Positions 47,995 through 52,573 of a DNA stretch of 64,000 nucleotides are shown here, one piece after another. The translations under genes and the position numbers were made by a program. How positions within the stretch are numbered: position 1 is the stretch's first letter; each line of letters opens with the position of its first letter. The DNA lies in the NCBI GenBank assembly GCA_951828585.1, contig OX639991.1, positions 1,210,576-1,274,575 of the forward strand, written 5' to 3'. The stretch is from Longimicrobiales bacterium. GTDB lineage: Bacteria; Gemmatimonadota; Gemmatimonadetes; Longimicrobiales; Gaopeijiaceae. A model generated the notes under the pieces. That model made no database searches. It was not told the origin of the DNA and saw only the letters and a program-made list of their open reading frames with translations.

Positions 47995-50900
47995 CTAGTG
48001 CAGGATATTGCGGGATCGCAGGTGCGCGATCACCGCGCCGGTCATCAGGGGCCGTAGCCGGTAACGAACCTCGGCGGTGGGGCCGGTGGGATCTTGCGGC
48101 TCTTCGTCCGGGGGCCGGGATGCCTCGATGAAGTGATCTTCTTCGAGGGACCGAAGCGTGTGCGCGCACTCCCGGGCCGAAGTCCGCAGGACCTCGCAGT
48201 ACTCGCTTGCGCTCAGCGTTCCGTGATCCAGGATGGCCTTGAGGGCGAAGCTCCGTGTCAGGTCGAGCATGTCGGTCGGGGGGCTCAACGGCTCCAGCGG
48301 GCGCACGAGGAGGCTGCCTTCGACCGTCGTGAAGTCGGCGGAGCACAGCCAGTGGAAGAGCGCCAGCCGAATCGACCCGAGCGATGCGCGGTGGAGGCGT
48401 TCAAAGTAATTCTTCTCGATCAGCTGCTGCTGCCGGTCGGTCGTGTGGAGGCGGCGTGCCCGGGTGCGCAGCGCGTCCGCTCCGGCCCGTGGCTCGACGT
48501 ACTGCAGGGGCAGGCCGCTGCGCAGGTGACGGGAGGTGATGGCCTGCCGCAGTTCGTCGGGTGAGAGGGGCTGAAGGACCAGCTGTCTTGTTTCGCCCGC
48601 CATTTCAGGCGCACGCGTGCGGACCAGCTGCCACGCGGACGCGGTCATGGAGAGGATCCAGAAGATGCTGGATTCGGTGCGCGAGACGAAGGTCATGAAG
48701 CGCCGGAAGAGCCTTCCGCCCTCTGGCGCGCGCATGTGAAGGTGCTCGATGCCCTCCAGAGTCACCAGGCGGGGAACCGATCCGTCCGTGATCGCCGTCA
48801 CACTCTTCGCCAGGTCATCCAGGGTTGCCGCGCTGTCGAGCCCGAGCCAGGGGGCGATCCGGGCCGCGAGGTCCGCTTCGTCGCGGCAGCGGTCATGCAG
48901 AATCCGTCTCACGCCGCGCGGCTCTTTGTCCGCCAAGCGCCTCGAGACGACGTTCAGGAAGCTGGTGACACCCGCGCCGGGCGGGTCGACGACGACCAGG
49001 CAACCCGGTTCACCCGCGTTCCAGCGCGCCCATGTCGCCTCGGCCTCCGCCAACTCGTCGTCGCGCCCGGCAAGGAACTGCGGCTCGGTCAGCGGCTCGA
49101 AGGCGAAGAGGCGCTGGTAGACGACGGGGAGGGTCCGAACGAACTCCGCCGCCGAGGCAAGCGTGTCTCCGGTCCGCTTCAGGGTTCGGGCCGGCTGCGG
49201 GCGAATGCCCAGCGCGCTCAGCAAGCCACCGGCACGTCCGCCGAGGGCCCGAATGCCGTCCCAGGCCCGGCGCCCGCTCTCCGCAACGCGCCCGCGCCAC
49301 TGCTTCCAGTCCTGCGCGACCTCGGTGGCCAGGTAGGTGCGGGCGTCGAGGTAGCCGGCGCGCAGGCGGTCCGCGGTCACCCGCCGGACCAGGTGCACGG
49401 CCCCTTCCCCTATTTCGTGGTGGACCCGGCTTGACGCCACCTCAAGTCCCGTCCGGAGCTCGGCCCTGGCGGACGCGAGCTTGTCGCCGGCGCGGGTGAG
49501 ACCGTTCGTGACGAGCACGCGGGCGCTGCCCGGGCCGCCGTCCGCGCCGTCCGCCAGCTCGCCGAGCGCGGCTTCGTAGGCATAGTCCGAGACGACCCCC
49601 AGCTCCCGAACCGCGGCGCCGACGGCGTCCCACCCGGCCGCGATCGAGGACGGGGCGGTGCGAATCCTCTCCATGCGCAGGGTGTCGAATGCCTGCACGG
49701 CGAGTTCCCGGGTCTGGACCACGCGGGAATCGCCGTCCGGGCGCCGAATGACCTCGCCGACATCCGGCAGGTCGTGAAGAGTGACCTCCGGCAGCTGGCG
49801 GTACATCGCAACCAGGTCTTCGATCGCCTCCTCGGCGTGTCTGGCAACGTCGCGAAGCAAGGGTGCAGGGTCATTCAGCGTGGCGGTGGGTCCGCTTAGG
49901 CCGACAGCGGTTCGCGCGCGTTCCGAGGTCAGGACGCGACGCAGTCCGTCGTCACCTTCCGGCAACGCTTCCGCGCGGACCATTCCGTCGTCCAGGGCTG
50001 CCCTGACCTGGTCCAGGACGGCATGAACGCGCCGGTTCGTCTCCTGCCACTGGCCGGCCAGCCGGGCGCTGATGGCCTGGGCGGCGGCGCGCATGGCCAG
50101 GAGACCCAGGTGCAGCTGCAGTCGGCCCGCCGCGTGCTTCGCCCAGTCGTCCCAGCGACCGGCCAGCCTCTCGTCGTCTTGAAAGGGGATTATCGGTGCC
50201 GGTCCTGGCGCGACGAAGGTTCCCGCCACCGCCACCGTTGCCGCGAGCACCTCGGAGGACCGCCGGAAGTCCCCCCCCGCCCCCCACCCCACCCCGTCCC
50301 GCAGCGCCACCAGCTCCCACTGCAACGCCTCGGCGGCGGCCACCCCCGCTCGCGCGGCTTCCACCACCCCCGGCTCCTCCGCCCCGGTTCGCCCCTTCGG
50401 AGGCAGCAACACCGCCCTCGTCCACAGGGCCCAGACCCGCTCCACCCGCCCCAGCCACCCCGCGCGGCGACGCTGGCCGGCGCGAAAGGCGCGACTCTGG
50501 CGCGGGAGCACGTCGCATTCGAGATATCGGCGCGCAACCGACCGCACCGCCACCTCGTGGACCTCTAGTTTCCACACGATGGGACGCAGCAGGCGCGCCC
50601 AGAGCCGCTTCACTTCCGTCCCCGGGCCCAGTCCGGCGGCGGTGGTGAGCGCGTCCGGCGACACCGGCGCCTCGACCGCTTCGGGCAGCCCCTGCACGGC
50701 CTCGCGGGCCTCACGGCCGGCCGCGACCAGGGACCGGTGCAGCGTCACGGCGGCGCTGCCGTGGCGAAGCACGAGATGGAGGGGCTTCAGGACGTTTCGC
50801 GACACATCGCGCCGGTACTCCGCGAGTGCACGCTCGGCGGCCGCGTCGTCCAGCGAGCCGTTTCCGGCGTCCATACCCTCGGCGAATGCCGCGAGAGCGC

Positions 50901-51084
50901 GCTCGTGGGCGCTCACAGCCTGCTCCAGGGTGCGGCCGATCCGTCCCCGGTCGTGCTCCTCGTGACGACGCCAGGCGGCTGCCAACGGCTCCTGAACGGC
51001 CTCGGCGATTCGCGCGACGATCTCCGCGTCGGTCATGAAGGCGAGAGTCACTGAATCCGCCATCTCCCGATCGGCCCCGCTCAC
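47995..51084 (-). CDS. Large helical protein with degenerate P-loop NTPase core and C-terminal winged-helix-like tail
   Basis: A 1029-residue protein beginning at GTG 51084, which overlaps the MscS gene stop (GTGA). Residues 1-650 are Ala/Arg/Glu-rich and mostly helical, with no recognised domain. Near residue 695 a P-loop-like turn VVVDPPGAGVTSFLNVV has Val where the Walker A Lys should be. Near 775 comes RLVTLEGIEHLHM, shaped like the Walker B of AAA/STAND ATPases (IDGLEHL) but with Asp replaced by Glu. The last 100 residues (FALKAILDHGTLSASEYCEV...) look like a winged helix. ATP hydrolysis is therefore doubtful. Coupling to a membrane channel suggests a sensor or gating partner. No named family recognised. 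Confidence 0.8.
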   Translation of the reverse strand: MSGADREMADSVTLAFMTDAEIVARIAEAVQEPLAAAWRRHEEHDRGRIGRTLEQAVSAHERALAAFAEGMDAGNGSLDDAAAERALAEYRRDVSRNVLKPLHLVLRHGSAAVTLHRSLVAAGREAREAVQGLPEAVEAPVSPDALTTAAGLGPGTEVKRLWARLLRPIVWKLEVHEVAVRSVARRYLECDVLPRQSRAFRAGQRRRAGWLGRVERVWALWTRAVLLPPKGRTGAEEPGVVEAARAGVAAAEALQWELVALRDGVGWGAGGDFRRSSEVLAATVAVAGTFVAPGPAPIIPFQDDERLAGRWDDWAKHAAGRLQLHLGLLAMRAAAQAISARLAGQWQETNRRVHAVLDQVRAALDDGMVRAEALPEGDDGLRRVLTSERARTAVGLSGPTATLNDPAPLLRDVARHAEEAIEDLVAMYRQLPEVTLHDLPDVGEVIRRPDGDSRVVQTRELAVQAFDTLRMERIRTAPSSIAAGWDAVGAAVRELGVVSDYAYEAALGELADGADGGPGSARVLVTNGLTRAGDKLASARAELRTGLEVASSRVHHEIGEGAVHLVRRVTADRLRAGYLDARTYLATEVAQDWKQWRGRVAESGRRAWDGIRALGGRAGGLLSALGIRPQPARTLKRTGDTLASAAEFVRTLPVVYQRLFAFEPLTEPQFLAGRDDELAEAEATWARWNAGEPGCLVVVDPPGAGVTSFLNVVSRRLADKEPRGVRRILHDRCRDEADLAARIAPWLGLDSAATLDDLAKSVTAITDGSVPRLVTLEGIEHLHMRAPEGGRLFRRFMTFVSRTESSIFWILSMTASAWQLVRTRAPEMAGETRQLVLQPLSPDELRQAITSRHLRSGLPLQYVEPRAGADALRTRARRLHTTDRQQQLIEKNYFERLHRASLGSIRLALFHWLCSADFTTVEGSLLVRPLEPLSPPTDMLDLTRSFALKAILDHGTLSASEYCEVLRTSARECAHTLRSLEEDHFIEASRPPDEEPQDPTGPTAEVRYRLRPLMTGAVIAHLRSRNILH

Positions 51085-52403
51085 GACGCCACCGGGTCAC
51101 CCGCCTCGGGCGTACCGGATACCGCCAGCGGATACCAGCCGTGCTCGGTAGCGAGCCCGGCCGCGCGGAAGCCGTCCCGCGCGCGTTCGGTGATGTCGCT
51201 TCTCAGCAGGAACTCGAAACGGGGGTCCAGGACGTAGGCCCGCACCTTCACACGCGTGACGAAGGTGGTGTGGAACTCGTCCTCGATGAACACCTGTATG
51301 GGCTTTTCCAGAAAAACGTACATGGAATTAACCGCGGCCTCGAAGGCGATTTCCTTCGCTGCACGCTCGTCGACGCGTCCCGGCAGGTAGAGGTTCGTCA
51401 ACACCTGGCAGTTGAGTTCTCCCGCGTTGGCGTTGGCCACCTGCTCCTCGACCACCTGCGAATTCGGCACGGACACGAAGTCGTCGTCCGCGGTCACGAT
51501 GCGGGTCGAGCGGAGGCCGATCGAGACCACCTCGCCGTAGGTGCCGCCCACCGAGATCTTGTCGCCCACCTGGAACGGCTGGTCGAAGACGACGATGAGG
51601 CCGCCGAAGACGTTCTTGAGCAGGTCCTGGGCCGCGAACCCCAGCGCCACGCCCAGCGCCGCGCTCGCCGCGAGAATCCCCTGGGCGTCGACCCGGAAGA
51701 TCTGGCGGACAATCAGATAGGCCGCGACGCCCCAGAGCAGCATGCGCGTGATCGGGATCAGCCACTTGAAGGTGAGGCGCCTTCTCACGCTCCGTTCGGC
51801 CAGTGTCTCGAGGATCCAGATCAGGCCCCGTATCACGAAGCGGAAGGCGACCAGCACCAGGATCGACCAGAAGATGGCGAGGCCGAGGTTCGTGACTTCG
51901 TCGCGGGCGTCCTCCAGATCGAGGCCTACTGTCTCGTCGGTGGGCGCGGCGCCCTCGACTTCGGTCTGGCTTGCGGACTCCATCGAGTCGAGACGCGCGA
52001 GGATGCGCTCCTGCGCCGCCATGATGCCCGACAGCGTCAGGGCCAGCGAGTCCTGGGCGGTGGCCGGAGGGGTGCCGGGTTGTTGTTCGGCCGATGCAGG
52101 GGGTGCGGGTTCAGGGGAAGCGGTGTCGAAGGTCCCCACGCCGGTATCCGGCTCCTGGGGCATTGCCGCTTCGGCCGTGGCGGAGTCGTCCGGGTTCGCG
52201 GCCTCCGGGCCGGTCGGGGGGGCCGGTACGGACGACACCTGGGAAGCCGAATCCCCGGCCTCCGGCTGTGCCTCGCCGGACTCGGAGTCCGGTTGGCAGC
52301 CGGCCAGGAACAGCACGGCGACGACACAGACCAGCCGCAACGGCCGCGCGGAGCAACCTGCCGGCGCTGCGCCACGCCGCGCCGATCGCTCACGGGAATC
52401 CAT
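51081..52403 (-). CDS. MscS-type mechanosensitive channel with lipoprotein signal
   Basis: About 440 residues. The start ATG 52403 is one of several in frame; an upstream ATG at 52445 is possible. Unusually, the N-terminus is a lipoprotein signal ending in FLAGC, followed by about 90 Pro/Ala/Glu/Thr-rich residues. The MscS core comes later: membrane helix FWSILVLVAFRFVIRG, pore helix ASAALGVALGFAAQDLLKN, the beta domain (PFQVGDKISVGGTYGEVVSI and VSVPNSQVVEEQ), and an alpha/beta cage. The MscS part is normal. A lipid-anchored MscS tail is rare. It is coupled to the large protein downstream by a 4-bp overlap. Confidence 0.85.
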   Translation of the reverse strand: MDSRERSARRGAAPAGCSARPLRLVCVVAVLFLAGCQPDSESGEAQPEAGDSASQVSSVPAPPTGPEAANPDDSATAEAAMPQEPDTGVGTFDTASPEPAPPASAEQQPGTPPATAQDSLALTLSGIMAAQERILARLDSMESASQTEVEGAAPTDETVGLDLEDARDEVTNLGLAIFWSILVLVAFRFVIRGLIWILETLAERSVRRRLTFKWLIPITRMLLWGVAAYLIVRQIFRVDAQGILAASAALGVALGFAAQDLLKNVFGGLIVVFDQPFQVGDKISVGGTYGEVVSIGLRSTRIVTADDDFVSVPNSQVVEEQVANANAGELNCQVLTNLYLPGRVDERAAKEIAFEAAVNSMYVFLEKPIQVFIEDEFHTTFVTRVKVRAYVLDPRFEFLLRSDITERARDGFRAAGLATEHGWYPLAVSGTPEAGDPVAS

Positions 52404-52573
52404 CCGCGCGCTGCCGCGTCTCATCCTGGGCGGGCGTGTGTGCATGGTTCAATCGCTTCGGGTTGCGTCGTTACGGTGGGGGACTCGTTATATTGCCCCG
52501 CCGGCTCGGTACGCAAGTCCCCGGGAACGCTGTCGCCCCGGGATCCTGCGGGCACCCGCAGCCCCTCCAACCC

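Follow-up and report, generated by a model that had tools for sequence, protein, structure and literature searches.

Channels of the MscS type are usually viewed as autonomous tension-gated valves, which raises the question of why one of them should be encoded together with a large soluble protein that carries a degenerate nucleotide-binding loop. Such a gene pair lies in the window studied here (the whole 64,000-nt stretch of DNA analysed), within a 4.47-Mb single-contig genome. As a preliminary description of the locus had already recognised, the channel gene and the gene of the 1029-residue partner, here called BIG, are two open reading frames on the same strand that share the four nucleotides GTGA (Table 1). 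Coupling of BIG to the channel gene through a GTG start recurs in most copies. The genome contains three PF00924 matches, and BIG adjoins only the channel at 51081-52445. An exclusive partner of this kind suggests a regulated version of the MscS channel.

Table 1. Coordinates (within the window) of the channel–BIG gene pair and of the features of its two products.
Feature	Position	Strand	Basis or remark
MscS-family channel gene, 454-aa frame	51081..52445	-	Probable start 52403; PF00924 5.5e-20; own subfamily profile A7 5e-142
BIG, 1029-aa soluble partner	47995..51084	-	Relatives found; no transmembrane segment predicted in nearest relatives
GTGA stop-start overlap of the channel and BIG genes	51081..51084	-	Sequence; coupling conserved
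Lipobox-bearing signal peptide (LAGC; Cys codon 52296-52298)	52296..52403	-	Sequence
Low-complexity Pro/Ala/Ser/Glu-rich linker	51894..52295	-	Sequence; periplasmic location expected from MscS topology
Three transmembrane helices including the pore helix	51606..51893	-	Hydropathy of homologues; alignment to MscS
MscS beta domain (MS_channel_2nd)	51424..51626	-	Profile match
Subfamily motif AYVLDPRFEF, alpha-beta domain of the cage	51210..51239	-	AYVxD pattern in 50/50 linked channels, 0/19 unlinked MscS
Unconserved tail where the C-terminal beta-barrel strand would be	51084..51152	-	Motif counts; profile alignment to TtMscS
N-terminal helical region of BIG, ~620 residues	49165..51036	-	Homologous across all MscS-to-BIG groups compared
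LPxxYxxLF motif (LPVVYQRLF), ahead of the P-loop domain	49105..49131	-	Nearly invariant; also in cotransporter fusions
Degenerate Walker A DPPGAGVTSF (BIG residue 700)	48958..48987	-	Val codon 48967-48969 in place of Lys
Walker B position LEGIEHLHM (BIG residue 776)	48733..48759	-	Glu at the Asp position
RHxxSG motif (RHLRSG), past the P-loop core	48514..48531	-	No change of Arg, His or Gly among 20 divergent copies
Winged-helix-like C-terminal region	48085..48279	-	Weak profile match to MarR-type YusO 1s3j, E 0.025; conserved

The pairing was followed through 298 genomes of one phylum, the Gemmatimonadota; those relatives that bear a name are metagenome genomes of this phylum. BIG was present in all 36 genomes with the linked channel subfamily, and this channel in 36 of the 38 genomes with BIG (Fisher p = 2e-44, uncorrected for kinship); BIG occurred without the channel only in G008 and G016, where it is cut at contig ends in both cases. 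Starting from the channel instead, a profile built on its linked copies recovered 36 of the 298 genomes at E < 1e-100, the next MscS following at 1e-44. Seen from either gene, the linkage is all but exclusive. At the 50 loci with both genes these are always adjacent and on the same strand, 48 times with MscS followed by BIG and twice in the reversed order, and the other BIG loci extend past contig ends. A conserved pair sharing the same P-loop lesion was what the preliminary description had expected of a real system, and these counts, together with the clade-wide lysine loss described below, are in agreement with it. No conserved third gene was found beside the pair: the outer neighbours vary, polA adjoins it only in the nearest relatives, and other widely shared open reading frames nearby appear to be the pair itself read in alternative frames, or to reflect local synteny. 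BIG was found in 23 of 23 sampled genomes of its own genus and is scattered elsewhere in the phylum. Near the pair, several genomes have a second MscS-type gene that falls outside the linked subfamily (L107:4091-5008, minus strand; L111:5982-6902, plus strand; L115:9191-10312, minus strand).

The channel matches MS_channel_2nd with 71.7 bits against a curated cut-off of 20.2, among PDB profiles it matches MscM (5e-22) and TtMscS (5e-21) best, and together the linked channels form a distinct MscS subfamily. The lipobox reported earlier is present (FLAGC, residues 46-50 of the 454-residue frame; the Cys is residue 36 counting from the start at 52403). Its strict pattern recurs in 38 of the 50 linked channels, with variants in several others and none in the two reversed-order pairs. 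The preliminary description had also called the MscS core normal. This has to be corrected at the C-terminal end of the cytoplasmic cage. A beta-barrel motif such as GIxIPYP occurs in 16 of 19 unlinked MscS paralogs from related genomes and in none of the 50 linked channels (p = 5e-13), and the profile alignment to the solved TtMscS stops at residue 266 of 282-285, short of the barrel; the absence of the barrel, a usual feature and no formal requirement of the MscS family, is judged from this motif and this alignment. Because the Lys-intact pairs in reversed order also lack the barrel motif, its loss is probably older than that of the lysine.

Database searches with BIG returned a single family match, AAA_16 (PF13191), at 19 bits and thus under the cut-off of 32.6; NCBIfam and PADLOC gave no match, and PDB profile searches with each half of the protein gave no credible one. 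Nor did the Pfam, NCBIfam, PADLOC and PDB searches turn up a known family name with an unrelated role, which the preliminary description had regarded as a finding that would count against it. It was likewise right in describing a long helical part without a known domain: these ~620 residues match no Pfam, NCBIfam or PDB family. They are conserved, and helical in a low-confidence model (AlphaFold, run on both halves of BIG with only two or three sequences as input, gave pLDDT values of 34 and 45). Descent of BIG from the AAA_16/STAND fold is supported by a full-length profile alignment to the copies with an intact Walker A lysine (E 5e-40); one of these, L057, is a distant relative that scores above the AAA_16 cut-off (36.7 vs 32.6 bits), and weak nSTAND matches were seen among the Lys-intact relatives. 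At L056:3832-9138 (plus strand, genome G012), the ATPase half of BIG is matched in two pieces, as if the P-loop domain bore an insertion, in an open frame that starts far upstream.

Related modules occur on transporters of a different fold. The single open frames L128:1794-6854 (minus strand, 1687 residues) and L152:4125-9392 (plus strand, 1756 residues) each encode an SLC12-like permease (PF00324, 7e-49 and 2e-49, respectively), followed by a helical stretch and then by a BIG-type ATPase and winged-helix module that carries LPxxYRxLF and RHxx[ST]G, has an intact GKS P-loop and includes a winged-helix-like tail. In L127 the permease is not visible because this locus ends at a contig end. Profile comparison of the BIG groups with the fusion modules aligned 294-339 residues (E 2e-20 to 4e-28), whereas AAA_16 control proteins aligned over just 46-79 residues; BIG and the fusions thus have this module in common. 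Between the helical part of BIG and that of the cotransporter fusions no homology was detected.

The fusions also bear on the idea that the channel serves BIG chiefly as an anchor in the membrane. The pair would then be a scaffold whose lipid-anchored linker in the periplasm ties the envelope to cytoplasmic machinery, for example that of division or cell-wall synthesis, with conduction being secondary. The long conserved helix of BIG, the lipobox kept in most linked channels and the binding of FtsZ by the cage of E. coli MscS (PMC4440785) would fit such a scaffold. However, both the pore helix and the beta domain show good conservation, and the occurrence of related modules on transporters of another fold points to transport control, so that we regard a mainly anchoring role as unlikely.

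The P-loop of BIG departs from the Walker A pattern GxxxxGK[ST] by the Val-for-Lys exchange already pointed out in the preliminary description, and among the 60 C-terminal domains placed in a tree the lysine is missing from 55 (replaced by V in 25, I in 16, L in 5, T in 3, R in 3, H in 2 and A in 1) and present in five. This rules out sequencing error or chance. The five Lys-intact copies are L057 and L112, which are MscS-linked in reversed gene order, and the cotransporter-type modules L127, L128 and L152. An intact Walker A in close homologues, which would have spoken for a sequence error, was not found; only distant relatives keep the lysine. A single change on the tree accounts for the distribution (SH-aLRT 99). 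Taking the direction of change from this outgroup and from the rule that holds for P-loops in general, we infer one old, clade-wide loss. Glu at the Walker B Asp position, taken earlier as a further sign of a dead site, is indeed present but does not in itself tell of an inactive site, since L057, L112 and L152, three of the five copies that retain the lysine, have it as well. The deep-branching L109, L110 and L111 have Arg at the Walker A lysine position together with an unchanged Walker B Asp, possibly an intermediate state.

For each of the close pairs compared, the degenerate ATPase half has a lower dN/dS (~0.21-0.35) than the helical half, which indicates that this domain is constrained by purifying selection; together with the intact frames, these values rule out pseudogene decay of BIG. 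BIG has preserved the rest of the P-loop (G-x-G, Thr/Ser) as well as the RHxxSG motif, which is unusual for a wholly dead site and could mean that a nucleotide or second messenger is still bound in spite of the missing lysine, with BIG reporting the energy or signal state of the cell to the channel. Exchange of the Walker A Lys for Val, Ile or Leu normally abolishes triphosphate binding, however, and since these are the most common replacements here, retained binding appears improbable.

We give an equally slim chance to BIG being a DNA-binding regulator of the channel gene or of osmotic genes that is released or held by the channel. The winged-helix-like tail, with its weak MarR-type match, and a free-standing copy of this tail in one genome would be in line with it, but the winged helix belongs to the ATPase core in Orc/Cdc6 and STAND proteins, and the constant linkage, like the absence of the cage barrel, speaks for BIG touching the channel. 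The free-standing copy (L122:13529-13894, plus strand) is a 122-aa open reading frame that matches the C-terminal winged-helix part of BIG with E 9.5e-37 and lies ~5 kb from a full pair. A defence or abortive infection system, in which a STAND-type sensor would open an MscS effector to kill infected cells, is very improbable and was rejected as the main reading, since, for all the frequent role of STAND NTPases in immunity and the weak nSTAND matches of Lys-intact relatives, BIG occurs genus-wide and not in a patchy, mobile distribution, polA adjoins it in the closest relatives, PADLOC found no match, BIG had no phage match and L112 and L152 no plasmid match, and the lysine was lost throughout the clade.

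The reading that we favour, with moderate confidence, is that BIG is an obligate cytoplasmic regulatory subunit that docks on the open base of the channel's cage and stems from an ATP-driven regulator with a lost nucleotide switch. The two genes would give rise to one channel complex, in which the MscS subunit forms the inner-membrane pore, with its lipid-anchored N-terminus on the periplasmic side, and the dedicated partner BIG would dock where the usual beta-barrel is gone and AYVLDPRFEF is conserved. From there it may control how the channel opens, inactivates or recovers, similar to the sulfonylurea receptor on the K-ATP pore. That BIG occupies the cage base and takes over control would be the simplest explanation for a channel family which lacks the barrel and always travels with BIG. 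In E. coli MscS, removal of the barrel residues 266-286 impairs recovery from inactivation, and FtsZ attaches close to the cage base, so this surface can take a partner (PMC4440785); in TtMscS, ion selectivity is set by the barrel (PMC5661003).

The ancestor would have been an ATP-driven regulator of osmotic transport, an AAA_16/STAND-type P-loop NTPase with a winged-helix tail, whose P-loop is still intact in the two reversed-order MscS pairs and in the SLC12-like fusion modules. As the nucleotide switch appears to have been lost once in the lineage of the window, BIG is probably a nucleotide-independent gate, sensor or scaffold. The sequences themselves establish the exclusive pairing, the lysine loss under purifying selection, the missing barrel motif and the kinship with modules of other ion transporters; that BIG docks on the channel, affects its gating and no longer binds nucleotide is inferred from them. 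An osmotic channel with a gate, sensor or scaffold as its partner was also the proposal of the preliminary description, and it is still the best reading of the putative function; its Walker B argument and its claim of a normal core have to be corrected.

No dedicated MscS partner gene is described in the open-licence literature searched. Tentatively, the pair may be the first case of an MscS-type channel with a dedicated soluble subunit replacing part of the cage, and may belong to a broader class, not yet described, where a single ATPase module, whether active or dead, governs osmotic ion transporters that differ in fold: MscS channels through an operon, SLC12-like cotransporters through fusion. 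The exclusively co-inherited partner and the barrel loss would make the role of the cytoplasmic cage, a long-standing question, directly testable, and the Lys-intact and Lys-lost pairs constitute a natural before/after comparison of a nucleotide-driven with a nucleotide-free regulator.

With the MscS family (E. coli MscS, MscM/YjeP and MscK; TtMscS, 3udc/3t9n) the channel has the pore helix and the beta and alpha-beta domains in common, and it differs in its lipobox, the AYVLDPRFEF motif, the missing C-terminal barrel motif and the obligate partner gene. BIG shares the Walker A and B positions and a winged-helix-like tail with the AAA_16/STAND P-loop NTPases (PF13191, nSTAND), but it scores below the family cut-off, has lost the Walker A lysine and adds a helical region of no known family. 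The SLC12-like cotransporter fusions of the same phylum (L128, L152) have the ATPase and winged-helix module and LPxxYRxLF in common with BIG, whereas their permease is covalently fused, their P-loop lysine is intact and their helical spacer is without detectable homology. The K-ATP channel (Kir6 with SUR) likewise combines a pore with an NTPase-derived regulatory subunit, and one SUR site is degenerate. Its folds are unrelated, and the comparison concerns solely how the channel–BIG pair may work.
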